Positions 35,621 through 60,182 of a stretch of DNA of 64,000 nt are shown here, in pieces. A program made the position numbers and the translations under genes. This DNA comes from Terracoccus sp. 273MFTsu3.1 (GTDB taxonomy: Bacteria > Actinomycetota > Actinomycetes > Actinomycetales > Dermatophilaceae), in NCBI RefSeq assembly GCF_000383675.1, contig NZ_KB911825.1:1-64000 (forward strand). Reading direction: 5' to 3'. A model generated the notes under the pieces. That model was not told the origin of the DNA. It searched no databases and saw only the letters and a program-made list of their open reading frames with translations. Position 1 is the first letter of the stretch. Each line of letters begins with the position of its first letter.

Positions 35621-35707
35621 GGGCCGATTGTGCAGGAGGGGACCGGCGCCCGGCCCGCCGCCCCGTGGGATCACCCGATCACCCCCGGTGGTATGCCGTC
35701 CCCTGCC

Positions 35708-35713
35708 TAGAAT
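35708..35713 (+). promoter_or_regulatory. -10 element upstream of the MauE-thioredoxin-like gene
   Basis: TAGAAT ends 5 nt before GTG 35719, consistent with a leaderless or near-leaderless transcript. Confidence 0.45.
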
Positions 35714-35718
35714 GCGAC

Positions 35719-36705
35719 GTGCCCTCCGACGCCCTCGCCCTCGCGCCCGTCATCCTCGCGGTCGTCCTCGTCGTGAGCGCGGTCGGCAAGCTGCGCTCGC
35801 CGAGTGCGTCCGCCGAGGCCTTCCGGGACCTCCGCGTGCCGGCGCCCCTGTCCGGCAGGCTCGTCGTCGAGGCACTGCCGTGGGGCGAGCTGCTCCTGGC
35901 GGTCGCCCTGCTCCTCGTCGGTGGCCAGGTGGGCGTCGTCGCCGCGGTGGCAGCGCTCCTGCTCTTCACGGCATACCTCGTGCTCGTGGTGCGCGCCGTG
36001 GGCTTCGACGAGGACGTCGACTGCGCGTGCTTCGGGGAGTTCGCACCCGGACGGATCACCCGTCGCACGGTCGTGCGCAACGCGTGGCTCGTCCTGCTGG
36101 CGGTCCTGGCCGTCATCGTTGCGGCACAAGGCTCCTCGGTCGCGGCTCGGGTGGCCGACGAGCGGCTGCCGTGGTGGTGGCTCGTGGCCGCGGTGGCCGC
36201 GGCCGTGACGACGGTGCTCGTCGTCGGGGGCCGGGCAGCCGCGCCGGAGACGCGGCAGGACCCGACGGCGTACGCCGAGGACGAGGGCGACTACGTCCGC
36301 TACCGCACGCCAGCCCTGCCGGTCACGCTCGGCGACGGCTCGACGACCAACCTGCGAGCCCTCAGCAGCGCCCGCGCCCAGCTGCTGCTCTACGTCTCGG
36401 ACACGTGCGGGAGCTGCGAGGCCATCATCGCGGCAGCCCCCGTCTGGAGCGAGGAGCTCACCGCCCTCGACGTCCGGCTCGTGCTGCGCAACGACCCTGA
36501 CCAGACGCAGCTCACCTCGGCCGCCGAGCCACAGACGGTCCACGACAGGGACGGCCTGCTCGTCGACAGCTTCGGGGTGCACGCCACCCCGAGCGCCCTG
36601 CTGCTCGGCGCCGACGGGCTGCTCGCGGGGGGACCCGTCGTCGGGGTGGACCACGTCAAGGACTTCGTCAGCGACATCCGGGCCGAGCTGGGGCTGCCGG
36701 TCTGA
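35719..36705 (+). CDS. MauE/DoxX-like membrane protein fused to a thioredoxin-like domain
   Basis: A 328-aa fusion. The first about 170 residues form four to five transmembrane helices of the MauE/methylamine-utilisation type, with a Cys pair (C102, C104 in DCACFGEF). The last about 130 residues form a thioredoxin-like domain with CGSC (C230, C233). In MauE/VKOR-like systems the membrane part passes electrons or oxidising equivalents to the thiol domain, so this is probably a thiol-disulfide protein handling exported substrates. It is convergent with a Tat-exported Cys-rich protein, a possible client. Confidence 0.8.
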   Translation: MPSDALALAPVILAVVLVVSAVGKLRSPSASAEAFRDLRVPAPLSGRLVVEALPWGELLLAVALLLVGGQVGVVAAVAALLLFTAYLVLVVRAVGFDEDVDCACFGEFAPGRITRRTVVRNAWLVLLAVLAVIVAAQGSSVAARVADERLPWWWLVAAVAAAVTTVLVVGGRAAAPETRQDPTAYAEDEGDYVRYRTPALPVTLGDGSTTNLRALSSARAQLLLYVSDTCGSCEAIIAAAPVWSEELTALDVRLVLRNDPDQTQLTSAAEPQTVHDRDGLLVDSFGVHATPSALLLGADGLLAGGPVVGVDHVKDFVSDIRAELGLPV

Positions 36706-36791: not shown

Positions 36792-37391
36792 TCAGGGCTG
36801 GAACTGCTGGGCACCGACGATGGTGCACGGGCCCTGGACGGGCGGCGTGCCGCCGAGCGATGCCTGGCTCGTCTGCGAGATGAACGTCGACGGGCAGGCG
36901 CTGCCGCCGGCACAGTCGTAGATGCGGTACGAGATGGTGACCGTCGAGTTGGCGCTGTTGCCCGTCACGTCCGCCGACGTGTAGATGAGCACCCGCTGGT
37001 TGAGGGCGCCGTCCGGCGAGCAGTAGACGTGGCTGGCGTTGAGCGACGGGCACGAGCACGTGCAGCTCGTGTTCCCGCCCGGCAGGACGACCTTGTACGC
37101 CCCGAGGTCGGGACTGCCGGCCACCGTGATGCTCGTGATCTCGACGATCGCGTCACGCGGCAGCGGACCGGTGACGTTGTTGGAGATCGCCTCGAAGACG
37201 TAGCCCTTGAAGGTGGACTGCGAGTTGCCCGGCAGCTTGCAGGCATTGCCGTTGAGCGTCAGGAAGCCGGCGGACGCCGCCACCGTGGGCGCAGCCCCCG
37301 CGACCACAACGGCGGGCACGGCCCACGCCGCGCCCTTGACGACCGAGCGACGGCTCGGAGGCGCCGAGTCGGCGCCGTGATTGTGTGACAT
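36792..37391 (-). CDS. Tat-exported Cys-rich protein of unknown function
   Basis: A 199-aa protein with a clear twin-arginine signal, SRRSVVKGAAWAVPAVVV (residues 13-30), ending around APTVAASA. The mature part is about 155 residues, Ser/Thr/Asn-rich, with at least eight Cys including the cluster TSCTCSCPS. I do not recognise the family. ATG 37391 has a G-rich Shine-Dalgarno (GGGGGA); GTG 37406 is an alternative. It lies downstream of the PqqD-like/HprK-like pair on the same strand (108 bp away) and next to a thiol-redox membrane protein, so it is a candidate substrate of either. Confidence 0.7.
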   Translation of the reverse strand: MSHNHGADSAPPSRRSVVKGAAWAVPAVVVAGAAPTVAASAGFLTLNGNACKLPGNSQSTFKGYVFEAISNNVTGPLPRDAIVEITSITVAGSPDLGAYKVVLPGGNTSCTCSCPSLNASHVYCSPDGALNQRVLIYTSADVTGNSANSTVTISYRIYDCAGGSACPSTFISQTSQASLGGTPPVQGPCTIVGAQQFQP

Positions 37392-37499: not shown

Positions 37500-37850
37500 T
37501 CACGGTCGGATGACGCCCGAAATGTCGCCTTTGGGACCCTGACCTGCGACGATGACCCTTTCGTCGACGAGCGCGAGCACCGCCGACCGGACGAGTTCCG
37601 ACACTCCTCCGGCGGGTGGGTCACCGAGCCGGGACACCAGCTCGACCTCGAGCTCGGCGAGGGTCCGTCCCGGGCCGATGGCGGCCCGGACGGCGTCACC
37701 GAGGGGGGACAGCCGCACGACGCGGTGCCCGGTCGGCCCCGCGACGAGCACGACGGTCCCCACGGCGGTGGAGTAGGTGTCGAGCAGGTCGCCCGACCGC
37801 AGCATGGTGGACGACGTGACCGTCGCGACCACCTCGACGGGGTGGCTCAT
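37500..37850 (-). CDS. PqqD-like (RRE-fold) small protein
   Basis: A 116-aa protein that looks like the PqqD/RiPP-recognition-element winged-helix fold: a beta region (GTVVLVAGPTGHRVVRLSP), the typical LSPLGDAVRAAI helix, then a basic helix-turn-helix with LVRSAVLALVDERVIV at the end. PqqD-type domains bind leader peptides and bring them to modifying enzymes. The ATG overlaps the stop of the HprK-like kinase gene (ATGA). The Tat protein follows. Pairing of PqqD-like and HprK-like proteins is known from RiPP clusters and from polysaccharide-linked HprK-related systems. Confidence 0.68.
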   Translation of the reverse strand: MSHPVEVVATVTSSTMLRSGDLLDTYSTAVGTVVLVAGPTGHRVVRLSPLGDAVRAAIGPGRTLAELEVELVSRLGDPPAGGVSELVRSAVLALVDERVIVAGQGPKGDISGVIRP

Positions 37851-38626
37851 CGCGGCCTCCCCAGCACCTCGGTCACGACGGGCTCGACGTCGGCGGCGTC
37901 GTGGTAGCGGACGCGCCTCAGCCCCCCGACGGCCTGCACGATCTCGGCGAGGCGATGGAGCGGACGGTCGAAGGAGGCGAGGGAGGACGTCTCGGGCGCC
38001 AGAAGGACGAGGGCGTCGAGCACGTCGACCTCCTCGACGACGACGGCCTCGCCGGGCTCGAGGTCACGACGCAGCAGCACGATCCCGGCGAGCCATGGCT
38101 GCACCTGCGGCGGGCGGAGCCCGAGATCGGACGGCGCGACCTCGTCCTTGGGCTGACCGGTGGCAGGGCGCCGGACCGACAGCGGTTTGGAGTACGCCGA
38201 GACGGTGCCGTCCGAGGCGATGCCGACGGTCTCGTCCGTGACGTAGCCCCGCCCCTGACCGAGGGTCCGGACGAGCGTCGTCTTGCCCGTGCCGCCCGGC
38301 GCGACCATCGCGATCGTGGCACCCGAGCGCTGGTCGCAGAGCGCCGACGCGTGGAACATCATCAGCTCTCCGGCGCGCGCCAGGATCGCTGCCCGGGTGA
38401 CGAGCTGGGTGAGGGACTGCAGGGCAGCCGCCGCCTCGTCGTCACCGGCGTCCGGCGACAGCTCGGGCGCCGCGACGACGGGGCACCCGACGACGGCCGT
38501 GGTGCGACAGGCCGACCACGCGTGCTCGACCCGTCCCCTCAGGCGGTCGTCGGCCACCTCGATGGCGACCGTCGCTCCCAGCGCCTCGACGTGGAGCAGC
38601 CCTTCGCCCGCAGCCGGGGCCGTCAT
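37847..38626 (-). CDS. HprK-like serine kinase (P-loop)
   Basis: A 259-aa protein resembling the kinase domain of HPr kinase/phosphorylase. The P-loop APGGTGKTT is at about 109-117, preceded by FHASAL and followed by GYVTDETVGI, an HprK-type Walker B region (GxxTDE), and then AYSKPLSVRR. It lacks the N-terminal domain of true HPr kinases, and no PTS genes are near, so it belongs with the HprK-related kinases found beside PqqD-like proteins in glycan or RiPP loci. It overlaps neighbours on both sides by 4 bp, so it is co-translated with a GT4 gene and the PqqD-like gene. Confidence 0.75.
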   Translation of the reverse strand: MTAPAAGEGLLHVEALGATVAIEVADDRLRGRVEHAWSACRTTAVVGCPVVAAPELSPDAGDDEAAAALQSLTQLVTRAAILARAGELMMFHASALCDQRSGATIAMVAPGGTGKTTLVRTLGQGRGYVTDETVGIASDGTVSAYSKPLSVRRPATGQPKDEVAPSDLGLRPPQVQPWLAGIVLLRRDLEPGEAVVVEEVDVLDALVLLAPETSSLASFDRPLHRLAEIVQAVGGLRRVRYHDAADVEPVVTEVLGRPR

Positions 38627-39774
38627 CCTCCCGCCTCACCGTCGCGCAGCCGGTGGAGCACCTCGGCCACCTGGTCGACCCGGCGAGACCAGTCGGCGTC
38701 CGCCGCACGCTCGGGGTCGGTGCGCCGCTCCTCGACGGGTCCGGCACGGCCCGCAGCCGCGACGACGGCCGGCACGAACGCCTGCTGGTCGACGACGGTG
38801 ACACGGTCGTCGTCGACGTCGCGGAAGCCGGCGACCGGCGTCGCCACCACCGGTCGGCCCGCCGCCTGGTACTCGTAGAGCTTGATCGGGTCGAGGCTGT
38901 CGGTGAACGGCGTCACCACGTGCGGCACGACGAGCACGTCGGCGTGCTGCAGGTAGGCCGGGACATCGGCGCTCGGGCGCGCCCCGAGCAGGACGGCTCC
39001 CGCGCCTTCGAGACGCGAACGCTGCTCCGTCGCAAGGGCGTTCGGCCCCACCAGCACAAGGCGACCGACCCCCTGGAGAGCCCGCGCCGTGGCCACGCAG
39101 AGGTCGACGTCGAGGCGGTCGCCGTGCAGGGTGCCGACGTAGACCGCCACAGCGCCGTCCGGCAGGTCGGCCGGTCGGTCGTGCCCGACGAGGTAGGCCG
39201 CCGTGTCGACCCCGTTGGGCACGAGCGTCACCTCCCGGAGGGCTCCCTTGCTCGCCGCGAGCGCCGGAGAGCAGACGACCACCTCGTCGCACCGGGCCAG
39301 CAGCACCTGCTCCTGCGCGATGATCCGCTCGGTCTCGGCGGTCGACCGCTCGGCCAGCGTCCAGTCGTCGGTGACGTCGTAGAGCGAGCGCCACGTCGTG
39401 GCCTCGACGAGCAGCGAGCCCGCCGGGTCGTTGACCCAGAGGACCGGGTCGGCCATGCCGAGAGACCGGGCGGTGCGGAGGACCTGGCGGGCCCAGCGCT
39501 CGTCGACCCGGCGGTCGACCCGACGCGGCAGCCACTTGGTGGGCTCGAGCAACCACAGGGCCTCCGGCCGTATGCCGTCGAGCGGTGGGCCGGCACGCAG
39601 CCCGCGACCCAGCCTCGGCTGGCTGGCGCCGAGGGCCGCGTGGAGCGGATCGGTCGCCGGCTCGACGAAGAGCACGCGCAGGTCGGGGTCGCGACGCAGC
39701 AGGCCGGCGACGAGGTGCTGGTTGCGCCGCCACACGCCGTCCCAGGCCTCGAGGGAGGTCACGACGAGGTCCAC
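38623..39774 (-). CDS. GT4-family glycosyltransferase (TuaH/WcaC-like)
   Basis: GT-B glycosyltransferase (383 aa). N-terminal LVVTSLEAWDGVWRRNQHL is typical of a GT4 subfamily found in exopolysaccharide loci. Donor domain features are AVYVGTLHGDRLDVDL and DSLDPIKLYEYQAAGRPVVATPV (KxxEY motif). GTG 39774 lies 16 nt inside the end of the preceding GT gene. Part of an uninterrupted leftward block from 45272 to 36792. Confidence 0.85.
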   Translation of the reverse strand: MDLVVTSLEAWDGVWRRNQHLVAGLLRRDPDLRVLFVEPATDPLHAALGASQPRLGRGLRAGPPLDGIRPEALWLLEPTKWLPRRVDRRVDERWARQVLRTARSLGMADPVLWVNDPAGSLLVEATTWRSLYDVTDDWTLAERSTAETERIIAQEQVLLARCDEVVVCSPALAASKGALREVTLVPNGVDTAAYLVGHDRPADLPDGAVAVYVGTLHGDRLDVDLCVATARALQGVGRLVLVGPNALATEQRSRLEGAGAVLLGARPSADVPAYLQHADVLVVPHVVTPFTDSLDPIKLYEYQAAGRPVVATPVAGFRDVDDDRVTVVDQQAFVPAVVAAAGRAGPVEERRTDPERAADADWSRRVDQVAEVLHRLRDGEAGG

Positions 39775-40793
39775 CGAACCACCTCCCGGTAGACGTTCGC
39801 GGTCTCCTGCGCCTGGTGCGCGGGAGTGAAGAGGGCGCGCTGGACGACCTGCAGCGCAGCGGCGTACGCATCACGGCGCTCACGGTCAGCCGCAAGGGCC
39901 GCGAGCAGCGCGCCTGCACGGGCCGCGTCACCGGGTGGGTGCAGTGCGGCGCCCTCGACGGCCCCGACCGTCTCGAGGTGGCCTCCGGCCCCCACGGCGA
40001 CCACCGGCAGGGCCGCCGCCATGGCCTCGAGGACCGTCAGGCCGAGACCCTCGATGCGGCACGGCGCGAGCAGCAGCCCGGCTCGGTCCATGAGGTCCGG
40101 CACGTCACGGCGGTGGCCGAGGAAGCGGGTCGCGTCGGCGATGCCCAGCTGCTCCGCGAGCGCCGTCAGCGCCGGACGCTCGGCTCCGTCGCCGGCGACG
40201 TCGAGGCGCCACCCCTGCGAGCCAAGGCCTGACCCCGCGAACGCGCGCAGGGCGACATCGGTGTCCTTCTCCGGCTCGAGGCGCTGGGCGACGAGCACCA
40301 CGGGGTCGCGGTCGCACGACGCCCGGCTCGTCGTGGTCGAGTCGACCCCGGGGTGGATGACGACGCTGGCGCCGTCGATCGTCTCGGCGACGTAGTGACT
40401 GATGGCGATCTGGGCGTCGACGCGACGCGCGGCCCCGGCGGCGGCAGCGGCCGACACCGGGTTGCTTCCCCGGTCCCGGGCGAAGTGACGCGTCACGACC
40501 AACGGCGTGCCGACCCCGACCAGGGCCGTGGCACAGGCGATCTCGGCAGCGGTCATGTGGGCGTGGACGACGTCGGCTCGAGCGGCCCAGCGGCGCACGG
40601 TCGTCAACACGTCGGTCACGGTTGCGGCCGGGAGGGTGCGGACGCCCTGCCCGGAGGCGGTCTTCATCCGGTCGGGATCGCCACCGACGACGACGACCTC
40701 GTCGCCGGCCGCGAGCTGGGCGCGGGCCAACCGCGCGACGTGGCTCTCGACACCGGCGAACGCGTCGGAGCGGATGGCGTGCAGGATCCTCAC
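39759..40793 (-). CDS. GT4-family glycosyltransferase
   Basis: GT-B glycosyltransferase (344 aa) with the opening ILHAIRSDAFAGVESHVARLA, a His/acceptor region VVHAHMTAAE, and the donor motif CRIEGLGLTVLEAMAAALPVV (EX7E). It starts with GTG 40793, which overlaps the stop of the upstream GT gene by 4 bp. Probably adds one sugar of the repeat unit on undecaprenyl diphosphate. Confidence 0.87.
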   Translation of the reverse strand: MRILHAIRSDAFAGVESHVARLARAQLAAGDEVVVVGGDPDRMKTASGQGVRTLPAATVTDVLTTVRRWAARADVVHAHMTAAEIACATALVGVGTPLVVTRHFARDRGSNPVSAAAAAGAARRVDAQIAISHYVAETIDGASVVIHPGVDSTTTSRASCDRDPVVLVAQRLEPEKDTDVALRAFAGSGLGSQGWRLDVAGDGAERPALTALAEQLGIADATRFLGHRRDVPDLMDRAGLLLAPCRIEGLGLTVLEAMAAALPVVAVGAGGHLETVGAVEGAALHPPGDAARAGALLAALAADRERRDAYAAALQVVQRALFTPAHQAQETANVYREVVRWTSS

Positions 40794-41947
40794 GTGGCTC
40801 CCCCACCGATGCCGGCCGGCGACGCGTCTCCCTGGCTCAGGCCGGTCAGCAGGTCGAGGTATCGCCGCGCGACGCTCGCCCAGGAGTGCTGCTCGGCACT
40901 CTCACGGGCTGCAGCCGCGGTCGTGGCCGGGTCGAGCGCGAGCACCTGCGCCAGACCCCGCGCGAGGTCGTCGGGGGTTGCCGAGACGACAGCGCCGTTG
41001 ACCCCGTCGGTGACGACGTCGGGCACGCAGCCGGTCGCGGTGGCGACGACGGGAACCCCGCAGGCGAGTGCCTCGAGGACGACGAGCCCGTAGGACTCGT
41101 AGGCGCTCGGCATCGCGACGGCCTCGGCCGCGTGGAGCCAGGGCCGCGGGTCGGGGTGGGCGCCGGCGAAGTGCAGACGGACACCGAGCGCCTCGGCCGC
41201 CTCGCTGCCCGACTCCGACGCGATCATCTCGGGGGTGCCACCGACGACGACCACATGGACCTGCGGACCCAGCCGCGCGACGGCGTCGACGAGCAGGGGA
41301 AGCCCCTTGCGCCCGAACTCGTTGCCGATGAACAGGACCATCTGGTCGTCGGTACCGAGCCCGAGCCGGCCGCGGGCGGCATCGCGCTCCGCCGGGCTCG
41401 GCGGACGGAAGCGCTCGATGTCGACGCCGTTGCCGATGACGACGGTCGGGATGGCGAGGCCGGGGTAGAAGCGTCGGAGCAGCAGCTCCTCGTCAGAGAC
41501 GAGGTTGACGACCACCCGGTGGGTCGCGGGACGCGAGTAGCGCAGTCGGTCACGCGTCGTCGTGAAGAGGTGCAGCGGGTTGCGGGCCATCCGGAGCCGG
41601 TAGTGACCCCGCGCCTTCATGGCGGCCTGGACGATGCCGTGGTTGACGTAGACGTCGCCGGCCAGCGCGTCGTTGTGGCAGATCGAGAGCAGCTCGGGGT
41701 GCCGGCGCAGGTGACTCCTCGCCCGACGCGTCCCCACGGTCGAGAACCAGACGACTCGACCGATGAGAGCCAGGCGTCCTCCGATGCCGCCGCGCGGAGC
41801 GGGCAGCCACGCCCCTCCCGCCTCGGCCAGGGTGAAGCGTCGGACGTCGACGCCGAGACGCTGCCACTCCTGCTCGAGGTGGTGGGCGACGGCCCCCACC
41901 CCCGTGCCCGGACCGATCTCGGGGGTGATCTGGACGATCGTCGTCAT
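40790..41947 (-). CDS. GT4-family glycosyltransferase
   Basis: GT-B glycosyltransferase (385 aa). Opening IVQITPEIGPGTGVGAVAHHL shows the glycine-rich acceptor loop. The donor half has VLFIGNEFGRKGLPLLVDAV and YESYGLVVLEALACGVPVVAT (EX7E). ATG 41947 overlaps the Wzy-like gene by 4 bp. The longer open frame upstream of this start is not coding. Confidence 0.88.
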   Translation of the reverse strand: MTTIVQITPEIGPGTGVGAVAHHLEQEWQRLGVDVRRFTLAEAGGAWLPAPRGGIGGRLALIGRVVWFSTVGTRRARSHLRRHPELLSICHNDALAGDVYVNHGIVQAAMKARGHYRLRMARNPLHLFTTTRDRLRYSRPATHRVVVNLVSDEELLLRRFYPGLAIPTVVIGNGVDIERFRPPSPAERDAARGRLGLGTDDQMVLFIGNEFGRKGLPLLVDAVARLGPQVHVVVVGGTPEMIASESGSEAAEALGVRLHFAGAHPDPRPWLHAAEAVAMPSAYESYGLVVLEALACGVPVVATATGCVPDVVTDGVNGAVVSATPDDLARGLAQVLALDPATTAAAARESAEQHSWASVARRYLDLLTGLSQGDASPAGIGGGAT

Positions 41948-43293
41948 GCGGCCGCCGCCGGCACGCGCGGGAGCCGGGCGAGCGCGGCCTCCCGTTCGGC
42001 GTCCTCGCGCTCGGCGTGCCAGCTCGCTCCGAGGCACAGGCCCAGGACGACGAACGGCACCGACCCCTGGACCGCCGCCCAAAAGAGGTCGAACTGGCCC
42101 TGGACCAGGCGCGACACGAGGACCGCGACGGCGAGCGAGCCGTAGGCCGGGTCGAGCCGCCAGGCCACGCGCAGGGCCACCACCATGAGCAGGACGAAGG
42201 CGGCGAGGCCGACGACCCCGGCGGAGGTGAGCACCTCGATCTCGGCGTTGGGTGGCTGGAACTGGAACGGGAACCGGTCGGTGTACCACCAGCGCAGCCC
42301 GACCCCGAACCACGGGTCGGAGCTCCACACCGTCATGGAGTCCTGGAACCACGTCAGCCGCTGGAAGACCGAGTTGAACTGGTTGTCGGACTTCACCTGG
42401 TCCTGCACGAGGTTCGTCACGAAGAGGACGAGCGGTGCGACGAGGAGCAGGACGAGCTTGGACCGTTTGCGGTCGGTCTTGGAGCGCAGGACGAGGATGA
42501 AGACAGCCGCAGCGAGTCCCACGAGGGCCTGGCGTGACTGGGTGAAGAACACGGCGGCGAGCATGAGCGTGACGAGGACGACCGACCATCGCCGGTTGAT
42601 GCCGACCCACACGGGCCGGGCGTAGACCATGACGACGCCCATCGCGCAGACGGTGCCCGCGAAGTTCTTGTGCATCCCGTACGGGAAGGACGGGTAGACC
42701 GGTGAGAAGTCGCCGTGCGCGAAGAGCAGGGCTCCCTCGACGACGGTGATGAGCGCGAGGATCGCGATCGTGCCGACGATGAGGCGGACCCCGGTGCGGC
42801 CGTGGCCGTTGGCCCCGACCGCCCAGCCGACGACGAGGGAGCCGCCCACCATCATCCAGGCGTGGGCCCACTCGACGGCGTTGGCGGTGTACGGGTTGTT
42901 GACGACGGTGACCAGCGTGGCGAACTGGTAGACGGCGGACGCCCAGAGGACCGAGCGGAGCCCCGGCGAGAACGGCCTTCGGGCGAGCAGGAGCGCCGGG
43001 ACCGCGGCCGCCGCGAGGGCGAAGTCCGACAGCGACAGGTCGACCCCGCCGCTCCCGACGCGCAGCACGACGAGCAGCAGCGGAAGGACGGCGAGCGGGA
43101 TGAGGCCGGGCTGGACGGCCGTCAGACCGATGGCGAGGACCGCGGCCGAGACGACGACGGCGGCCTCGGGCATCGTGACGGCGAGACGGCCGACGACGGC
43201 GACGAGCACGACACCGCCGAGCACGAGCCCGACCTTGGCGAGCAGCTCGGTCCGGCCGGGGCTGCGAAACCGCTCGGGCAGCAGGGTGGTCAC
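41944..43293 (-). CDS. O-antigen ligase/Wzy-like polymerase
   Basis: Polytopic membrane protein (449 aa) with about 12 transmembrane segments and a large extracytoplasmic loop near residues 290-345 holding the Wzy_C signature (SVFQRLTWFQDSMTVWSSDP followed by GVGLRWWY). Proteins of this type polymerise lipid-linked repeat units outside the membrane or ligate glycans to acceptors. Only one such protein is present here beside one flippase, so it is the likely polymerase. GTG 43293 overlaps the preceding gene by 4 bp. Confidence 0.85.
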   Translation of the reverse strand: MTTLLPERFRSPGRTELLAKVGLVLGGVVLVAVVGRLAVTMPEAAVVVSAAVLAIGLTAVQPGLIPLAVLPLLLVVLRVGSGGVDLSLSDFALAAAAVPALLLARRPFSPGLRSVLWASAVYQFATLVTVVNNPYTANAVEWAHAWMMVGGSLVVGWAVGANGHGRTGVRLIVGTIAILALITVVEGALLFAHGDFSPVYPSFPYGMHKNFAGTVCAMGVVMVYARPVWVGINRRWSVVLVTLMLAAVFFTQSRQALVGLAAAVFILVLRSKTDRKRSKLVLLLVAPLVLFVTNLVQDQVKSDNQFNSVFQRLTWFQDSMTVWSSDPWFGVGLRWWYTDRFPFQFQPPNAEIEVLTSAGVVGLAAFVLLMVVALRVAWRLDPAYGSLAVAVLVSRLVQGQFDLFWAAVQGSVPFVVLGLCLGASWHAEREDAEREAALARLPRVPAAAA

Positions 43294-45272
43294 GAGGTCA
43301 CCGCCCTCACGGTCGAGTCGGCGGGCCGGATCTCGGACCGCACGGGCCCGGCGACGTAGAGCCGCACCCGTGCCCGTGCGGCACGGCCTCGGTCACCGCG
43401 CAGCACGACGCCCCGCACGGCCGATCCGAGGACCTGCCCGGCCCGCCCCACCTGCCAGCCCACGGTGCCGAAGTGCTTGCGGAGGTAGACCTCCTGGGCG
43501 GCGTGGAAGTGCCCCTCCCGCCGGGTCGGATCCGTGCTCGTGGCTGCGCCCACGTGCGTCGCCCGGGCTGCGGGCACGAGCGCATGGCGCCAGCCGAGCA
43601 GGACGGCGCGATGGGCCCAGTCCGTCTCCTCGGCGTAGAGGAAGAAGCGCTCGTCGTCGAAGGGACCGACGTGGTCGAGGGCCTCGCGGCGCAGCAGCAG
43701 GACCGACCCGATGACGTAGCGGTTGCGGCGCAGGCGGCCGAGTCCGGCGGCCTCGACCCACGTCGCGATCGGGGACGGGAAGGGCCACTCGACCCGCGCG
43801 GGCGCGCCGGTCGCGTCGACCTGGGACGGTCCGACGCTCGCGAGATCGGGCTCGGCGAGCAGTGCCGTGCGCAGGGCCGCGATGTCGGCGGGGTGGACCA
43901 CCGCGTCGGGATTGACGAGCAGGACGTCGGAGCGCGGGTCGACCCGACGCAGCGCCTCGTTGACCCCGGCCCCGAAACCCCCGTTGCGACCCGGGTCGAC
44001 GTAGTGGGCACCGGCAGCGTCCGCCACGGCACGAACCGCGGGCGACGAGGAGTTGTCGACGACGGTGACTCGCATGCCGGGCAACGGAGCGAGCGCCCCG
44101 GCGAGCAGGTCGGGCTGGCCGTACGCGACGACGACGACCTCGAGCGGCCGACCCTCGGGGTCGGCCGGCGCCCACTGCTTCGTCGCGGCGCGGTACAGGG
44201 CGTCGTGTTCGGCGGCGATGCGGTCCCACGAGGTCGCCGCCGCGCGCTCGCGCCCGGCCGCCCGCAGCCGCCGGGCGACGTCGGTGTCGTGCACCACCTC
44301 GCTGATCGCCTTGGCGAGCTCGGCGACGTCGCCCTCGGCGACGACGAGAGCGGCGTCGCCGACGACCTCGGGCAGCGCGCCGCTGTCGCTGACGACGACC
44401 GGGATGCCGCAGGCCATCGCCTCGAGCGCGACTCGGCCGAACTGCTCGACCCACGAGCGGGTCGTGAGCGACGGGACGACGAGCACGTCGAGCGAGCGGT
44501 AGAAGTCGGGGAGCCCCTCGGGCGCCAGCGCGCCGAGGAGCTCGACACGGTCGGCGATGCCGAGCCGTCCGGCGAGGTCGAGGAGGGCGTGCTTCTCAGG
44601 TCCGTCGCCGGCGAGGCGTACGCGCACGGCGGGCTCGAGAGCGACGGCGCGGAGCAGCACGTCCGCCCCCTTGGCGGCGTCGAGGCGACCGGCGAACCCG
44701 ACGACGGGCACCTCACGGCGCGTGCCGGCATACGCCACCGGGGTGAAGACGGTCAGGTCGGTGCCGAGGTCGACGGTGCGGGCACGGCCCGGGAATCCCT
44801 TGCGCTCGGCGATGCGTCCGGCCGCCTCGTTGCACACGTTGACGCCGCTCGCGTGCCGCAGGGCCGCACGCTCGATCCAGCGGAACGGGACGGGGTGGCG
44901 CTTGTCGATGTTCTGGGCGGAGTAGAGCAGGTACGGCGCGCGTCGGCGACGAAGCCACCGCAGCACCAGCACCTCGGCGGTCGCGAGGGCGAAGGGCTCC
45001 TCGTGGACGTCGATGACGTCGACGGGTCGGCCGAGGGCCCGCCACAGCGGGCGGGGGTCGTAGAGGAAGAGGGCGGGGTGGGAGCCGACGGTCCGGGCGG
45101 GCTCGACGGGCTCGCCGGGGCGCACGGACAGGGCGACGCGGCGTCCGCCCTCGGACCACACCGCAGCCGACACGACGTCGACGCGGTGGCCGAGGCGTCG
45201 CAGGGCCCGCTCCCGCTCACGCCATGCGTCGACGACGGCGCTGTGGGACACGCGCAGTGCCCACATGACCAC
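43290..45272 (-). CDS. bifunctional glycosyltransferase, GT4-GT2 fusion
   Basis: A 660-aa protein with two complete catalytic domains. Residues about 1-365 form a GT4 GT-B unit (VVGFAGRLDAAKGADVLL; EQFGRVALEAMACGIPVV). Residues about 375-610 form a GT2 GT-A unit (LEVVVVAYGQPDLL; VTVVDNSSS; GRNGGFGAGVNEAL; VLLVNPDAVVH), the latter rhamnosyltransferase/WbbL-like. The two would add successive sugars. GTG 45272 or ATG 45266 may be the start, both with a G-rich Shine-Dalgarno. First gene of the leftward glycan block and divergent from the tyrosine autokinase gene. Confidence 0.85.
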   Translation of the reverse strand: MVMWALRVSHSAVVDAWRERERALRRLGHRVDVVSAAVWSEGGRRVALSVRPGEPVEPARTVGSHPALFLYDPRPLWRALGRPVDVIDVHEEPFALATAEVLVLRWLRRRRAPYLLYSAQNIDKRHPVPFRWIERAALRHASGVNVCNEAAGRIAERKGFPGRARTVDLGTDLTVFTPVAYAGTRREVPVVGFAGRLDAAKGADVLLRAVALEPAVRVRLAGDGPEKHALLDLAGRLGIADRVELLGALAPEGLPDFYRSLDVLVVPSLTTRSWVEQFGRVALEAMACGIPVVVSDSGALPEVVGDAALVVAEGDVAELAKAISEVVHDTDVARRLRAAGRERAAATSWDRIAAEHDALYRAATKQWAPADPEGRPLEVVVVAYGQPDLLAGALAPLPGMRVTVVDNSSSPAVRAVADAAGAHYVDPGRNGGFGAGVNEALRRVDPRSDVLLVNPDAVVHPADIAALRTALLAEPDLASVGPSQVDATGAPARVEWPFPSPIATWVEAAGLGRLRRNRYVIGSVLLLRREALDHVGPFDDERFFLYAEETDWAHRAVLLGWRHALVPAARATHVGAATSTDPTRREGHFHAAQEVYLRKHFGTVGWQVGRAGQVLGSAVRGVVLRGDRGRAARARVRLYVAGPVRSEIRPADSTVRAVTS

Positions 45273-45381
45273 TCACCCCTCTCCCCGTGCCGTCCCCCGG
45301 ATGTCTCCGACTCGGCACAACCCCTTGGATGATATGGGAGGATCGCCGCACGTACTGTCGAGTTGGGCCGGGGGGGGCAAA

Positions 45382-46791
45382 GTGACGTTCCGGGAGTTCC
45401 TGGGCGTTCTGGGGGCACGGTGGCGCATCATCGCGGTGAGCCTGCTCGCCGTGGTGGCGGCTGCTGCCGTCCAGACGATGCTGACGCCTGCCGTCTACTC
45501 GTCGAGCTCGAAGATCTATCTTCGGGCGACGCAGCCGGCCAGCGCGAGCAACAACAACCAGGTCGCGACGTACGCCGTCCAGGCCTCCGACCTTGCGACG
45601 TATCTCGAGGTGCTCACGTCACCGTCGGTCATGGAGCCGCTCCGGGACCGCCTCGGTCTCGCACCGGGGACGCCCATCAACGTCTCCGGTGAGGTCTCGC
45701 AGACCTCACCGATGATGACGATCACCGCGACCGGTGGCGATCCCGAGCTGCTCGCGCGGATCGCCAGCGAGTCCGGCCCCGTGCTCGCCGAGGTGGCGAC
45801 GAAGAAGTTCTCACCGCTGCTCGCCGCCAACGGCCAGTCCGTCGAGGCCACGACGATCACCCCCGCCAACGTGCCGGGTGAGCCCACGTCGCCCAACGCC
45901 AAGCGCAACCTCGCGCTCGGTGCCCTCCTCGGCCTCGCCCTCGGCATCGGCCTGGCCCTGCTCCGGCACACTCTCGACACCAAGGTGCGCACCGAGGACG
46001 ACATCAAGGCGCTGTCCGACCGGCCGATCCTCGGCGACATCCCGATGGTCAAGTCGGTCAAGAGCGGACTGCTGTCCCTCGAGACGGACCCGCACGGGCG
46101 GCACGCAGAGTCGATCCGGCGGCTGCGCACGAACATCCTGTTCGTCGACGTCACGACGGCCGGGCACTCCTTCGTCGTCACCTCCTCGGTGCCGGGCGAG
46201 GGCAAGACGACGACCACGGTCAACCTCGCGATGGCGATGGCCGACGCCGGCTCGAAGGTGCTGCTCATCGACGGCGACCTGCGCAACCCCTCCGTCGCCA
46301 GCACGATGGGCCTCGACGGCTCCTTCGGTCTGACCACCCTGCTGCTCGGGCAGGCGGACCCGGAGGACGTCGTCCAGCGCTGGCGCGAGACGACCCTCCA
46401 CGTGCTTCCGGCCGGCCCCGTGCCGCCGAATCCCAGCGAGCTGCTCGGTTCGGAGCCGATGGAGGTCCTCTTCGGCAAGCTGAGCCACGACTACGACTTC
46501 ATCCTCGTCGACAGCCCGCCCGTCGTCCCGGTCATCGACGCCGTGCTCATCAACAAGCTGACACACGGGCTGATCATGGTCGTCGGCGCGGAGCGGACGA
46601 AGAAGCGCGACCTCGCGAGCGCGGTCCAGTCGCTCGAGACCGTCGACGCCCCCGTCGCCGGCTTCGCCCTCAACATGGTGTCGTCCGGCTCGTCGACCGC
46701 GCACCGCTACGGCTACTACGGCTACAACCGCGACGCCGACGCCAAGCCGAGCCGTCGGGAGCGGCGCTCGCAGGCCAAGCACCACGCCTGA
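45382..46791 (+). CDS. polysaccharide biosynthesis tyrosine autokinase (Wzc/CapAB-like)
   Basis: A 469-aa single-chain chain-length regulator plus BY-kinase. Residues about 1-200 are the Wzz domain with two transmembrane helices (about 16-36 and 178-198). The kinase domain has Walker A SSVPGEGKTTT (about 268-278), Walker A' VLLIDGDLRNPS and Walker B FILVDSPPV. The C-terminus has a Tyr cluster, HRYGYYGYNRD, the expected autophosphorylation site, followed by a basic tail. GTG 45382 is chosen because the Wzz domain begins there; an in-frame ATG lies at 45301. It should control polymer length together with the Wzy-like protein and LMW phosphatase. Confidence 0.9.
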   Translation: MTFREFLGVLGARWRIIAVSLLAVVAAAAVQTMLTPAVYSSSSKIYLRATQPASASNNNQVATYAVQASDLATYLEVLTSPSVMEPLRDRLGLAPGTPINVSGEVSQTSPMMTITATGGDPELLARIASESGPVLAEVATKKFSPLLAANGQSVEATTITPANVPGEPTSPNAKRNLALGALLGLALGIGLALLRHTLDTKVRTEDDIKALSDRPILGDIPMVKSVKSGLLSLETDPHGRHAESIRRLRTNILFVDVTTAGHSFVVTSSVPGEGKTTTTVNLAMAMADAGSKVLLIDGDLRNPSVASTMGLDGSFGLTTLLLGQADPEDVVQRWRETTLHVLPAGPVPPNPSELLGSEPMEVLFGKLSHDYDFILVDSPPVVPVIDAVLINKLTHGLIMVVGAERTKKRDLASAVQSLETVDAPVAGFALNMVSSGSSTAHRYGYYGYNRDADAKPSRRERRSQAKHHA

Positions 46792-46849
46792 CCGGCCGCA
46801 CCGGGCGGACCGGCCGCCCGGCCACCCGGCCGCTCGGTCCGGTGAGGGC

Positions 46850-47149
46850 TCAGGCCCCGGGCCGCGCGTCGGAGTCGGCACCCAGGGGCACGAGCAGCTC
46901 GCGCGCGCTGAGGTCGGCGACGAAGGCGGTGACATCGGCCGCGATCGCCTCCTCGGGCTGTCCGACGAGCTCGGCGACGCGGGCGACCCATCCCGTCGCG
47001 GGAGCCGTCGTGGCCTCGGCCCAGATGAGGGCGGCCGCACCGTCGAGGACGACGAGCGGGCCGCCGGGCAGGCGTGCGACGTAGACGGACATCCCGTCGT
47101 CGCTCACGGTCACCCCGGCGTCGGGTCCGGGACGGTAGGCCGCACTCAC
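46850..47149 (-). CDS. second PqqD-like small protein
   Basis: A 99-aa protein with the PqqD-like layout: PLVVLDGAAALIWAEAT helix, a charged linker, and a terminal DVTAFVADLSARELLVPL helix. GTG 47149 overlaps the stop of the nucleotidyltransferase gene (GTGA) and has GGAG upstream. It shares the general fold with the protein at 37500-37850 but little sequence, so the two may serve different partners. Co-translation with a nucleotidyltransferase points to a two-protein module. Confidence 0.65.
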   Translation of the reverse strand: MSAAYRPGPDAGVTVSDDGMSVYVARLPGGPLVVLDGAAALIWAEATTAPATGWVARVAELVGQPEEAIAADVTAFVADLSARELLVPLGADSDARPGA

Positions 47150-48063
47150 CTCCGTCTCCCACGGGCGCGGCGGGAGACCTGCTCCCTCAGGCCCCGCGCC
47201 GGACGGCCGAAGAACTCGGCCACGATCTCGGCGCGCGACACGGGGCGTCCACGCACGATCGTCAGGTGCTCGACGTTGACGAGCACCGAGCGCGACGCGA
47301 CGGTCAGCTTCGCGCGCAGGCCCCGGGCCGCCCGCACCCGGGCGCGCCACTCCTCCATCCGCGTGCCACCGCGCGACGCGACGCGCCAGAGGTCGTAGGC
47401 CGGGTCGTCCCGGTGGTCGTCGAGGGTGCCGGTGATGACGGAGAAACCGAGCCCGGCGTCGAGCCGGTCGACCCACTCGAGGATGCGGGCCCGCCGGGTC
47501 TCGTCGGCCGAGGTCCACACCCACTCGACGTCGTGGGCGGCCTTGGGGTCGCTGCCCCCACGGGCGGCATGGAGCAGCAGGAGCGCGGCCTGGGCGTCGC
47601 GCGCCGGGACGGCGCACTCCACCCCGCCCAGCACCGTCGTCGTGTGCTCCGACCACAGCGTGTCGAAGGCCAGCTCGGGCGTCGGCCCGGTGCCCGGATA
47701 GATCCGGTGGAGGTCGAGCAGGCCGAAGTCGCTGTGGCGCAACGTCGCCGAGTGCTCGAAGGACGAGCCGTACGCGAACGAGTTGATGAGCTCCCAGCCG
47801 TGGTGGCGCAGCTCGTCGAGGAGCATCCGCACGTGCTCCGGTCGCGCGAGCACGTCGGCGTCCGAGAAGCCCCGGCCGGGCACGAGCGTCGGGTCGAGGG
47901 CCGCGCCCTTGACGTGCAGCAGGTCGGCGCCGCACCGGTCGGCGACCCACTGGAGGCAGGCGTGCGCGAACCCGATCCGAACCTCGAGAGGCACCGTCGC
48001 CCCCACCTCGGGGGGCGCCGTCGCCTCGTGGGTTGCCATCGCGCGAACCCCCATAGACTGCAA
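47146..48063 (-). CDS. nucleotidyltransferase-fold protein (NTP_transf_5-like)
   Basis: A protein of about 300 aa with the nucleotidyltransferase-like core: LLHVKGAALDPTLVPGRGFSDADVLARPEH contains the G..SDxD type metal site (SDADVL), and FGLLDLHR may give the third Asp. Such uncharacterised NTases occur beside PqqD-like and HprK-like proteins in glycan loci. The start is uncertain: TTG 48063, ATG 48054 or ATG 48039; TAGGGT on the minus strand (48081-48086) is the probable -10. Divergent from the PAP2 gene. Confidence 0.7.
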   Translation of the reverse strand: MQSMGVRAMATHEATAPPEVGATVPLEVRIGFAHACLQWVADRCGADLLHVKGAALDPTLVPGRGFSDADVLARPEHVRMLLDELRHHGWELINSFAYGSSFEHSATLRHSDFGLLDLHRIYPGTGPTPELAFDTLWSEHTTTVLGGVECAVPARDAQAALLLLHAARGGSDPKAAHDVEWVWTSADETRRARILEWVDRLDAGLGFSVITGTLDDHRDDPAYDLWRVASRGGTRMEEWRARVRAARGLRAKLTVASRSVLVNVEHLTIVRGRPVSRAEIVAEFFGRPARGLREQVSRRARGRRR

Positions 48064-51166: not shown

Positions 51167-52858
51167 TCAGGGAGCGGCGGGCGCGTCGACGGCGCGGCCG
51201 GTGAGCAGTCCCAGCACCCACGGTCCGACCCGCCGTGCCGGGCGGGGCAGGGCCCGGATGATGGCGTCGGCGTCGGGCACCGTCAGGCCCGATCGGGTCA
51301 CCCGGAGGACGCCGACGTAGAGCGCCCCGCCGACGACGGCGACACCGACGGCCCGGAGCCACTCGTTGCCGGGTGCCACGTCGCCGGCGACCATGAGCCC
51401 ACCCGCCAGCGCCGCCCCGACGAAGCACGGCAGGGCGTCTCGCATCGCGAGCGAGACGGTGATGCCGAGACCGCGCAGCTCCGAGCGGGTGAGCAGCAGC
51501 AGGCTCGTCATCGAGCCGCCGACGTTGGCGATGACGGCGCCCCACACCCCGAGGGGTGGGATGAGGGCGAGGGCGAGCACGACGTCGACGACGAGCGCCA
51601 CCGACGTCGCCCTGAGCATCTCGCCGGCCGACAGTCGAGCCGACACGAAGGCTACGACCGGGCTGGCGACGGTGACGAAGCCCGCGGCCACGCCGAGCGC
51701 GACGACGACCGGACCGGCCTCGGCGAACTCCGGCCCGTAGAGCACGGGCACGAGGACCGCGAGGGGCACGACGGCCACCGCCTCGACGAGCCCCACGACC
51801 GTGGCCCCGGCGCGCAGCACGCGCCGGAAGGCCGGCCGTACGGCGTGCGCGTCGACCTCCATGAGACCCGAGATGGCCGGCACGAGCGGGCCGACGAAGG
51901 CCTGGGCCGGCGCGAAGACGTGACCGGCCAGGCCGAAGGCCAGGGCGAAGACGCCGACCGCGGCGGGGGCCGCGAGCCAGTTCATGAAGAAGATCTCGCT
52001 GCGCGACATGACGAGGCCGCCGATGACGCTGGCGAGGCCCACGGGCACGGCATACCGCCAGAAGCCGACCGGCATCCCGGTGGGCAGCACGGGTCGGAGC
52101 ACCGCACGGCGGTAGACGGCCGAGATCGGGACGAGGCAGAGCGCCACGGCCACCCCACTGACGATGAGACGCACGGTCCAGACCGCGTCGGGCGTCCGGG
52201 CCGCGAGCACGACGGCGACGACCGCGACCTGGGTGGCCAGCGACGTGACGAGCGCGATCTTGGCACCCTCCGCCGTCTTGTTCTCGATCGTCAGGCAGGC
52301 GACCGCCCCGTCGAGCGCCGCCGGGACGACGATGCCGAAGACGATCGCGATGACCATGGCGGTCGGGGGCACGTCGGCGAAGAGCAGGACGACGACCGAG
52401 AGCACCGGCATGACGACGAGGAGCCGGAAGCCCTGTGACTGCGACAGCAGCCTGGACACCGCGGCGGTGCGCCCAGCCGCGTGGGCCTTGGCGCCGAACT
52501 GGATGACGGCAGAACCGAACCCGGCCGTCAGCATCCGCGAGACGACCTCCATGAGCGCGGTGAGGAAGGCGAGCCGACCGTAGTCGGCGGCGCCGAGCAC
52601 CCGAGCCATGAGGAGGTTGACGAGGAAGGCGACGGGAATGGCGATGAAGGTGTGGATGACGGTCCAGACGGCGCCGCGCACGGCGCTCTCCTGCAGCCCC
52701 TCACGGCTCATCTGCCCGGCGGGCTGAGCCTCGAGGTCGTCGACCTGCCGGTCGGGCAGGAGCAGGTCGGCCTCCACGTCGGCGGCCGCCGACATGCCGT
52801 CGGGACGCGCGTCGGGGCGGCGGTCGGCACCGCCCTCGTCGGGTCGGTCACTCGCCAC
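51167..52858 (-). CDS. Wzx-like polysaccharide flippase
   Basis: Membrane protein (563 aa) of the MOP/polysaccharide transporter family with about 14 transmembrane helices after an acidic cytoplasmic N-terminus of about 60 residues, longer than usual. Early helices read ALWTVIHTFIAIPVAFLVNLL-like and LMARVLGAADYGRLAFL, a signature of oligosaccharide flippases. It would move undecaprenyl-PP-linked repeat units across the membrane for the Wzy-like enzyme. GTG 52858 overlaps the GT14 gene by 11 bp. Confidence 0.87.
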   Translation of the reverse strand: MASDRPDEGGADRRPDARPDGMSAAADVEADLLLPDRQVDDLEAQPAGQMSREGLQESAVRGAVWTVIHTFIAIPVAFLVNLLMARVLGAADYGRLAFLTALMEVVSRMLTAGFGSAVIQFGAKAHAAGRTAAVSRLLSQSQGFRLLVVMPVLSVVVLLFADVPPTAMVIAIVFGIVVPAALDGAVACLTIENKTAEGAKIALVTSLATQVAVVAVVLAARTPDAVWTVRLIVSGVAVALCLVPISAVYRRAVLRPVLPTGMPVGFWRYAVPVGLASVIGGLVMSRSEIFFMNWLAAPAAVGVFALAFGLAGHVFAPAQAFVGPLVPAISGLMEVDAHAVRPAFRRVLRAGATVVGLVEAVAVVPLAVLVPVLYGPEFAEAGPVVVALGVAAGFVTVASPVVAFVSARLSAGEMLRATSVALVVDVVLALALIPPLGVWGAVIANVGGSMTSLLLLTRSELRGLGITVSLAMRDALPCFVGAALAGGLMVAGDVAPGNEWLRAVGVAVVGGALYVGVLRVTRSGLTVPDADAIIRALPRPARRVGPWVLGLLTGRAVDAPAAP

Positions 52859-59025: not shown

Positions 59026-59078
59026 GGCCGACAGTGTAAGCAGCAGTGGGATCGACTCCTGACACCTACACTTGCGCC
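59026..59078. promoter_or_regulatory. divergent leaderless promoter pair
   Basis: Two identical -10 hexamers TACACT point away from each other: minus strand 59033-59038 (7 nt before ATG 59025) and plus strand 59067-59072 (6 nt before GTG 59079). The 28 bp between them must hold both -35 regions, so expression of the two genes is likely linked. Confidence 0.55.
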
Positions 59079-60182
59079 GTGGACAGCACCCGCGAACGCG
59101 ACACCGACCTGTTCGAGTCCGAGCAGGTCGCTGCCGGCGACGGCTCCTCCGGGGGCTCGGGTGGGTCCGACGACGACTGGGACGGTGGCTCGCCCGCCGA
59201 CGGCGGTTCCGGCCGCAGGGAGAAGCGGCGCAACCGCAAGGTGCTCGTGGCCGCGCTCGTGCTGCTGCTCGTGCCCGTGCTCGCGGTGGGCGGCTACCTC
59301 GCGTGGCTCAACCACATCGTCACCAACAACGTGAAGCAGGAGCTGCTCCTGCCCGACGACGGTTCGGCGGGCAGCCAGCCGACCGACAAGAACGGCAACG
59401 TCGTCGTGCAGCCGGTGGGCAACGGCACGAACTACCTCGTCGTGGGCAGCGACGCCGGTCCGGGGCGCGTCGGTGGCCGCTCCGACGTCATGGTGCTCGT
59501 GCACGTGCCGGCCGACCACTCGGCCGTCACCCTGATCCACTTCCCCCGCGACCTCTACGTCTCGATCCCGGGCAAGGGCAAGAACAAGCTCAACGCGGCG
59601 TACGCGTTCGGCGGGCCTCCGCTCCTCGTCAAGACGATGCAGGACATGCTCGGCGTCCGCATCGACCACGTCGCGCTCGTCGGGTTCGAGGGGTTCAAGT
59701 CGATGACCGACGCCGTGGGCGGCGTCGACGTCAACGTCGAGGAGTCGAGCAACCAGCCGCCCTACGTCTTCACCCAGGGCGTGCAGCACATGGACGGCGC
59801 GATGGCCCTGGCCTTCGTGCGCGAGCGCAAGCAGCTGAGCGAGGGCGACATCTCCCGCGGCCGGCGCCAGCTCGCCTTCATCAAGGCGCTCATGCTCAAG
59901 ACCCTGAGCAAGGACGTGCTGACCAACCCGATCAAGCTCAAGGACTTCACCGAGGCGGCCACGTCCAACCTCACCGTCGACCAGAAGCTCGACGTCGGCA
60001 CGATGCGCTCCGAGGCCCTGGCGCTGCGCGACCTGCGCGGGGGCGACATCCGGTTCATCACGGCGCCCTTCACCGGCTTCGGCACGAGCCCGGCCGGTGC
60101 GTCGATCGACATCGTCGACGAGATCAAGATGGCCGACCTCGGTGACGCCATCCGCAACGACGAGCTCAACGCCTACAAGTAG
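59079..60182 (+). CDS. LytR-CpsA-Psr (LCP) family glycopolymer transferase
   Basis: A 367-aa LCP protein. Acidic cytoplasmic N-terminus, one transmembrane helix (about 55-80), then the LCP domain: NYLVVGSDAGPGRVGGRSDVMVLVHV with the catalytic Asp/Arg, TLIHFPRDLYVSIPG, KLNAAYAFGGP and FVRERKQLSEGDISRGRRQ. LCP enzymes attach undecaprenyl-linked glycopolymers to peptidoglycan (or to arabinogalactan in mycolata). Its place in this locus suggests that the exported glycan is wall-anchored rather than freely released. Start GTG 59079, probably leaderless. Confidence 0.92.
   Translation: MDSTRERDTDLFESEQVAAGDGSSGGSGGSDDDWDGGSPADGGSGRREKRRNRKVLVAALVLLLVPVLAVGGYLAWLNHIVTNNVKQELLLPDDGSAGSQPTDKNGNVVVQPVGNGTNYLVVGSDAGPGRVGGRSDVMVLVHVPADHSAVTLIHFPRDLYVSIPGKGKNKLNAAYAFGGPPLLVKTMQDMLGVRIDHVALVGFEGFKSMTDAVGGVDVNVEESSNQPPYVFTQGVQHMDGAMALAFVRERKQLSEGDISRGRRQLAFIKALMLKTLSKDVLTNPIKLKDFTEAATSNLTVDQKLDVGTMRSEALALRDLRGGDIRFITAPFTGFGTSPAGASIDIVDEIKMADLGDAIRNDELNAYK

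Follow-up and report, generated by a model that had tools for sequence, protein, structure and literature searches.

Why does a Wzx/Wzy glycan locus carry an HprK-like kinase and a nucleotidyltransferase (NTase), each coupled to a small PqqD-like protein? We addressed this question in the first 64,000 nucleotides of contig NZ_KB911825.1 of Terracoccus sp. 273MFTsu3.1 (hereafter the window), which sits on a 362-kb contig and has a GC content of 72.6%. A preliminary description of the sequence had noticed the two pairs close to a Cys-rich protein with a twin-arginine translocation (Tat) signal and proposed a modification system that couples a modified surface protein to glycan export. Our analysis suggests that the pairs probably belong to a protein-modification system guided by RiPP recognition elements (RREs; RiPP, ribosomally synthesized and post-translationally modified peptide), resembling the lasso-peptide kinase and LPP systems, in which the Tat signal peptide itself would act as the leader.

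All genes of the proposed system lie on the minus strand of the window. The putative substrate, the Tat-exported Cys-rich protein of 199 amino acids (aa), is encoded at 36792-37391, with its start better placed at the ATG at 37391 as judged from the relative in record L175, and its leader matches the leader profile described below with E 1.8e-11. The 29-residue leader, PSRRSVVKGAAWAVPAVVVAGAAPTVAAS, corresponds to 37272-37358, and codon positions computed from the gene coordinates are 37323-37325 for W12, 37314-37316 for P15 and 37272-37274 for the conserved Ser29. The first pair consists of the RRE-fold domain PqqD1 (37500-37850) and the HprK-like kinase (HprK, 37847-38626), and the second of the RRE-fold domain PqqD2 (46850-47149) and the NTP_transf_5-type NTase (47146-48039). 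The NTase had been started at a TTG at 48063 in the preliminary description, but the ATG at 48039 is the better choice and is the start called in seven of eight near relatives. In both pairs the start of the RRE gene overlaps the stop of its enzyme gene by 4 nt, confirming the translational coupling described earlier, and both overlaps are kept in all eight Terrabacter/Humibacillus-type records.

The shared Tat leader and its distribution

Tat proteins encoded beside RRE genes, including the Cys-rich one of the window, have a common leader, RRxxxxGAAWxxPx[VI]...PAxAAS, while their mature parts are mostly unrelated. Among 57 distinct leaders that were selected by profile and span the model, RR is present in all 57 and position 17 is always occupied by L, V, I, F or A; W12 is found in 53, P15 in 56, P24 in 54, A27 in 52 and Ser29 in 52. 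Counted from the motif Trp, the conserved Ser comes 17 residues later, where signal peptidase is likely to cut. Clustering of the 55 mature parts by sequence gave 38 groups, 29 with a single member, the leader proteins range in length from about 140 to 610 aa (n=55), and in a Pfam and NCBIfam scan of 49 of the 55 (set A7) each family was matched by one to three proteins, with Ig-like or propeller-type domains prevailing. Generic Tat signals (PF10518) were found in 12/12 genomes tried, six with and six without the system, and none of the 30 signals read from their 94 matches contains [WY]xxP. The neighbouring Tat protein stays a candidate target as first suggested; it is the leader that defines the class of putative substrates, and not Cys-richness, since the six leader proteins listed for L070 and L095 have no Cys at all. 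Two paralogues of the window protein with the same leader are encoded elsewhere in the same genome, unlinked and on other contigs (C3:301831 and C7:237837), and no C-terminal transmembrane segment was seen by eye in the window protein. We also observed a mature-domain family marked by CKxPG close to its N-terminal end (36792-37391 of the window, L172, L174, L006, L058 and L033; three copies in the window genome) and a second one (L113, L114, L121 and L127) whose genes are unlinked to modification genes.

The distribution of the leader was compared with that of the NTase in a sample of 198 genomes of the order. The NTase was taken as strong in 26 genomes with E 8e-39 or better (named ‘system genomes’), the next match being at 6e-17, and 11 of the 37 genomes matching the NTase profile were dropped for E values above 1e-38, including G090, which has a fragment. 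The leader profile A1 was built from 28 of 34 listed leaders, family f1 leaders included, after one false motif match in L078 had been removed, and was applied with a cut-off of E≤1e-4, which drops 37 of 67 matching genomes. The A1 leader is present in 30 of the 198 genomes, namely in all 26 with a strong NTase and in four of the 172 without (Fisher p 1e-28 from genome counts, a value that ignores kinship), with up to ten leader genes per genome. A profile trained solely on genus g18 of family f10 found the leader in 25 of the 26 NTase genomes and in three of the 172 others; outside g18, it did so in 20 of 21 system genomes and in two others (G011 and G076). The same f10-trained profile, which has no f1 sequence in its training set, was then applied to 99 family f1 genomes, where leader and NTase occur together in 43, the NTase only in four, the leader only in two and neither in 50. 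A1 recovers the leader in three of the four NTase-only genomes (G551, G564 and G598), and it detected none in the 11 genomes without NTase that were tried.

Presence and absence also change together inside genera. Concordance was seen in g1, which is the window's own genus and in which G614 has neither NTase nor leader, and in g2, g7, g293 and g311, the negatives of g293 and g311 being genomes that are 89% and 75% complete; discordant genomes occur in g9, g301, g303, g316 and g318, three of them being those recovered by A1. The system is patchy across seven families of the order. In a sample of 346 genomes from the phylum, the same three genomes, all from the window's own family, account for every strong match of NTase and of leader. 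No leader was matched in the 34 genomes whose NTase matches are weaker, and in three further genomes the leader matches are weak (E 3e-4 to 9e-4) and come without an NTase. The two pairs likewise co-occur in related genomes, as a single system would predict according to the preliminary description: HprK was matched in 35 and the NTase in 26 of the 198 genomes, with 25 of the 26 NTase-match genomes sharing HprK, and HprK is present in 26/26 genomes with a strong NTase.

Recognition domains and enzymes

The proposal that both small proteins have a PqqD/RRE fold is borne out by sequence profiles and, for PqqD1, by a predicted model. PqqD2 scores above the Pfam PqqD cut-off (PF05402, 25.6 vs 23.4 bits), PqqD1 has no match in Pfam or NCBIfam, and the profiles of the two cross-match, a search started from either retrieving the other. 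Against the PDB, the PqqD2 profile matches TbiB1 (E 8e-14), PbaB1 (9x90, E 6e-9) and LppB (9x8z, E 2e-7), and the PqqD1 profile matches 9x90 (E 7e-5) and TbiB1 (E 3e-4). The PqqD1 model (pLDDT 87) aligns best with the TbiB1-leader complex 5v1v (Z 10.1, root-mean-square deviation 3.0, 88 residues aligned), followed by 5v1u (Z 9.8), 6jx3 (Z 9.7) and the PqqD structure 5sxy (Z 8.8), and the top matches are lasso-peptide RREs that were solved together with leader peptides. Because Foldseek gave no match at E≤0.001 with this model (many RuvBL chains at TM ~0.3 were regarded as noise) and proteins without a known RRE role, such as 8hkr, appear at Z 8.8 and below, we base the fold call for PqqD1 on the top structural alignments together with the sequence matches. 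By sequence and model, PqqD1 and PqqD2 both appear to be PqqD/RRE-like domains whose nearest relatives are the lasso-peptide B1 RREs. The position that selects Tyr or Trp (D70 in LppB, Q79 in PbaB1) looks like Leu in PqqD1 and Asp in PqqD2 when profile alignments are inspected by eye; nothing is built on this observation.

The model of the HprK-like kinase (pLDDT 96) has the HprK/PEPCK fold, with Z 13.8 to PEPCK and a Foldseek E of 7e-4 to HprK 3tqf, and all 50 matches listed in its structural alignment (VIA-align) are PEPCKs. H92, the GxGKxT P-loop and D131-E132 are invariant in 36 sequences (alignment A6, which excludes five more divergent copies among the 33 HprK sequences of set A3: the second copy of L069 and those of L079, L080, L083 and L084). 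In a comparison of the catalytic set with residue equivalences assigned by eye, H, K and D are invariant in A6 and the residue following D131 is Glu. At the sequence level the kinase has weak Pfam and NCBIfam matches only, the NCBIfam ABC matches reflecting the P-loop; its matches listed from the PDB are ABC and other ATPases, again mainly through the P-loop, and against the HprK_rel_A family (TIGR04352) it scores 17.3 bits with a cut-off of 200. The NTase scores above the NTP_transf_5 cut-off (PF14907, 38.0 vs 31.2 bits), and its KG, DxD and DxH motifs are invariant in 26 sequences; its sequence retrieved a single, chance-level match from the PDB and no relative from the plasmid collection. 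The domain assignments proposed from the sequence were upheld by Pfam cut-offs for PqqD2 and the NTase, but not for PqqD1, which has no match, or for the kinase, which is matched weakly and not as HprK_rel_A. Judged by conserved residues and the kinase model, both enzymes look active. A second HprK-RRE copy at L069:10599-11369, which has lost the P-loop and the catalytic residues and resembles a pseudokinase with an RRE, adjoins the intact copy, an NTase, an RRE and two leader proteins.

Operon structure and gene neighbourhoods

The pairs are brought together in family f10 (L068, L070, L095 and L096), where a single operon reads NTase-RRE-BY-kinase-HprK-RRE and continues with four to six tandem Tat leader genes, with the Wzz/BY-kinase homologue lying inside the RRE/kinase operon. 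The preliminary view of a set split in two hence describes the window, where glycosyltransferase and Wzy genes stand between the pairs, but not family f10. With three HprK fragments of less than 150 residues set aside, an RRE lies within 400 nt of HprK or is fused to it in 32 of 33 cases, 20 of which are single-ORF (open reading frame) HprK-RRE fusions. A Wzz/BY-kinase gene is found within 1.5 kb of the NTase or HprK in 16 of the 26 system genomes (union of two counts).

Leader genes are physically linked to this set in a part of the genomes. A search with A1 places a leader gene no more than 6 kb from the NTase or HprK in 16 of the 26 genomes, where a rough chance expectation is 0.8, a count that is biased by the training of A1 on leaders from such loci. 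A cleaner test is family f1 with the f10-trained profile: 11 of 43 genomes have a leader at most 6 kb from the NTase and 21 of 43 have one at most 15 kb away, against 0.4 and 1.1 roughly expected by chance. The majority of leader genes, 82 out of 122 overall and 76 out of 116 in system genomes, are unlinked, being more than 6 kb from the NTase and HprK or on other contigs.

Some HprK-RRE genes stand alone. In nine loci (L059, L060, L066, L071, L078, L090, L092, L093 and L097), all fused except L059 and L060, no NTase or leader gene is seen in the 20-kb region. The kinase may have a second role, as four genomes with HprK-RRE (G108, G122, G164 and G190) lack a strong NTase match. In family f12 (L075, L079, L080 and L084), a gene resembling mannose-6-phosphate isomerase by eye is located between NTase and RRE.

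In the window, a Pfam scan of 30 ORFs from 28817-60179 found, besides the two RRE pairs, glycosyltransferases, Wzx, Wzy, Wzz/BY-kinase, PAP2, an acyltransferase and a LytR-CpsA-Psr (LCP) protein, in agreement with the Wzx/Wzy assignment made earlier. Between the pairs lie, on the minus strand, three GT4 glycosyltransferase genes (38623-39774, 39759-40793 and 40790-41947), the Wzy-like polymerase/O-antigen ligase (41944-43293; PF04932, E 7.5e-13) and a GT4-GT2 fusion glycosyltransferase (43290-45272), all assigned by Pfam, and on the plus strand the Wzz/BY-kinase (45265-46791, start uncertain between 45265 and 45382; PF02706, and TIGR01007 with 176 bits). The Wzx-like flippase (51167-52858, minus strand; PF01943/PF13440) and the LCP family protein (59046-60182, plus strand; PF03816) lie farther along. 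The order NTase-RRE-(BY-kinase)-GT-Wzy-GT-GT-GT-HprK-RRE (GT, glycosyltransferase) is conserved in the eight Terrabacter/Humibacillus-type records, with the BY-kinase called in seven, and a flank of 10 kb is long enough to include the Tat gene in just some of them (L175, L181 and L182). In L183, a ninth and more distant record, from Agromyces, NTase-RRE is found close to Wzy and BY-kinase, with the genes arranged in a different order. The window NTase is 92% identical to its homologue in Terrabacter sp. Root181, and the host genome is close to Terrabacter.

Convergent with the Tat gene is a plus-strand gene for a MauE-family membrane protein (35665-36705, start uncertain between 35665 and 35719; PF07291), the C-terminal part of which looks thioredoxin-like by eye. 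A MauE-family protein lies within 4 kb of HprK or the NTase in 10 of the 26 system genomes (union of two counts), and recurs at the window locus, L069, L074, L075, L079, L080, L083, L084, L086 and L087. It possibly serves disulfide formation in those leader proteins that contain Cys.

Proposed mechanism, alternatives and known systems

The reading that we favour starts from the gene inventory, the HprK-RRE and NTase-RRE fusions, the operon linkage and the near-perfect co-occurrence of leader and NTase, together with the predicted RRE and kinase folds, and extends them by analogy with characterized systems. In the cytoplasm, PqqD1 with the kinase and PqqD2 with the NTase would bind WxxPx[LVIFA] in the h-region of the Tat signal; the HprK-like kinase would then phosphorylate the near-invariant Ser29 at the junction of leader and mature protein, and the NTase might place a nucleotidyl or glycosyl group on the Ser29 phosphate. 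The folded, modified protein would be exported by Tat and its leader cleaved, which would put the modified Ser at the N-terminus of the mature protein, where it may serve as an anchor for glycan from the same locus. Of the two parts of the original proposal, modification of the neighbouring Tat protein is well supported, if indirectly, by operons, HprK-RRE fusions, fold and phylogenetic profile, and its coupling to glycan export is inferred.

Several observations weigh against this interpretation. The main counts come from one order, a limited clade, and ignore kinship, and the motif counts are drawn from leaders that the profile itself selected. Any h-region can be expected to have an aliphatic residue at position 17, and a Ser close to an AxA-like site is no rarity, as 7 of the 30 generic Tat leaders have one. 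Some genomes carry the leader but lack an intact NTase, namely G011, G076, G103 and G090, which have no HprK match (G090 has an NTase fragment only), and the f1 genomes G536 and G595, while G613 has an NTase and no leader by either profile. Conversely, HprK-RRE occurs without a strong NTase or a strong leader in G108, G122, G164 and G190, of which G122 has a weak NTase match and G122 and G164 have leader matches at E 0.005-0.008. Ten of the 26 system genomes have no leader gene within 6 kb, and an RRE lies within 400 nt on the same strand in just 15 of the 26 NTase matches, with one NTase-RRE fusion. The RRE would also need to bind a segment that is engaged by the Tat receptor. As for the enzymes, LppN had no detectable effect in a heterologous system according to excerpts of PMC13381572, and a review, in its accessible part, is undecided on whether PsmN itself transfers hexose (PMC9266682). 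Because LppN is silent and Ser is present in 7 of 30 generic leaders, the Ser29 site and the NTase step are weaker claims than leader recognition.

That the proposed motif lies within the Tat signal itself invites a different explanation, in which the RRE-kinase and RRE-NTase modify Tat proteins to control their export, either as a quality check or to hold them back at the Tat receptor while they fold, with no link to polysaccharide. It would suit the large share of unlinked leader genes (82/122; 76/116 in system genomes) and the several genomes in which the neighbours of NTase and HprK do not look glycosyltransferase-like by eye. However, two nucleotide-using modifiers exceed the needs of a chaperone, the Wzz/BY-kinase neighbourhood recurs in 16/26 genomes, and systems built from the same kinds of parts modify their substrates chemically in the available portions of PMC13381572 and PMC9266682, so that we judge export control unlikely. 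Even less probable is a cytoplasmic regulation of the capsule, with HprK and BY-kinase phosphorylating glycan enzymes, the RRE folds as scaffolds and the leader association reflecting a shared lifestyle: the BY-kinase next to NTase or HprK in 16/26 genomes and the conservation of the whole NTase to HprK-RRE segment, GT and Wzy genes included, in the eight Terrabacter/Humibacillus-type records (BY-kinase called in seven) are in its favour, but the leader closely follows the NTase subfamily, even where both appear or disappear inside genera, tandem leader genes lie within the operon, and the RREs are nearest to leader-binding B1 proteins. That the leader is a lineage-specific Tat flavour which co-occurs with the NTase by phylogenetic inertia agrees with the apparent concentration of both in one order of the 346-genome phylum sample, but is very improbable and largely refuted already by the patchiness in seven families, the concordant changes in g1, g2, g7, g293 and g311, and the 30 motif-less generic Tat leaders from genomes with and without the system. 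We rejected a textbook capsule, which leaves the RREs and the leader unexplained, a Cys-rich maturation system with a MauE core, as MauE is near HprK or NTase in just 10/26 genomes and some substrates have no Cys, and a defence system, as PADLOC gave no match for five proteins.

If RRE-guided modification through a Tat leader is correct, this kind of modification is not confined to small peptides but takes in entire secreted proteins, and the use of Tat is explained, as modification and folding precede export. For a gene set that the preliminary description places in polysaccharide loci without a known function, we can now name probable substrates, the motif by which they may be recognized and a residue that may be the target, and the leader provides a sequence tag for genome-wide listing of substrates. 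A broader version, which we put forward tentatively and with more doubt than confidence, is a general tagging of actinobacterial surface proteins, in which the Tat signal is a RiPP-type leader, RRE-borne kinase and NTase create a phospho-(glyco)-Ser in the cytoplasm at the N-terminus of many unrelated mature proteins, Tat exports them folded and the locus glycan is attached to this Ser or built on it; such a pathway would correspond to PEP-CTERM/exosortase, but in Gram-positives and at the N-terminus. Among titles and abstracts that combine Tat or twin-arginine with RRE, PqqD or HprK, no paper apparently describes such a system. The term ‘twin-arginine’ does not occur in the LPP paper (PMC13381572), and a term search found neither ‘kinase’ nor ‘nucleotidyltransferase’ in the accessible parts of two RRE surveys (PMC12710340, PMC7470986).

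How, then, does the system compare with known ones? The HPr-rel-A set of Proteobacteria combines a TIGR04352 kinase, a PqqD-like protein and NTP_transf_5. These are the same three domain types, but the window kinase scores 17.3 bits vs a cut-off of 200. The paeninodin/pseudomycoidin lasso systems are similar in having a B1-type RRE, a Ser-phosphorylating HprK-like kinase and an NTase homologue: as far as the available part of PMC9266682 goes, PsmK phosphorylates Ser, and hexoses on the phospho-Ser depend on the nucleotidyltransferase homologue PsmN. Unlike lasso clusters, no small precursor is seen in the window, and the 30 scanned ORFs gave no asparagine-synthase or transglutaminase match for the macrolactam synthetase C and the protease B2. 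The LPP clusters of Bacillota, with the genes lppA-K-B-S-D-N, are located in polysaccharide loci; LPP RREs bind [Y/W]xxPx[LVIFA], a motif that lasso RREs bind too, and LppK adds up to four phosphates to the precursor at a sole site, core Ser3 (all from excerpts of PMC13381572). Shared with LPP are discrete RREs, an HprK-like kinase and an NTP transferase near polysaccharide genes, as well as a conserved N-terminal leader with a Y/WxxP motif followed by a variable remainder; Ser3 lies 18 residues after the motif Tyr (counted here from the same excerpts), compared with 17 after the Trp in our leaders. In contrast to LPP, the leader here is a Tat signal on whole proteins of about 140-610 aa that are mostly unlinked, there are two RREs, one per enzyme, and a BY-kinase is a recurrent neighbour. 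The LPP precursor motif YxxPxVLxHQxIxFETxxS is replaced by RRxxxxGAAWxxPx[VI]..PAxAAS, and neither the SipW-like archaeal-type signal peptidase nor the MsbA-like/ABC transporter of LPP has a Pfam match in the same 30 ORFs. As their defining features were not seen in the 30 scanned ORFs, the leader motif or the kinase score, we do not place the system in the LPP, lasso or HprK_rel_A families. PEP-CTERM, where numerous secreted proteins that are otherwise unrelated carry a short signal tied to exopolysaccharide genes in the accessible part of PMC1569441, follows the same phylogenetic-profile logic, but its signal is C-terminal, whereas ours is an N-terminal Tat signal with a kinase and an NTase as putative modifiers; no exosortase match was found in the 30 scanned ORFs, to which the search was limited. 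The three-domain set is already known from Bacillota RiPPs, and the proposed Tat-signal leader on full-length secreted proteins is the new element.

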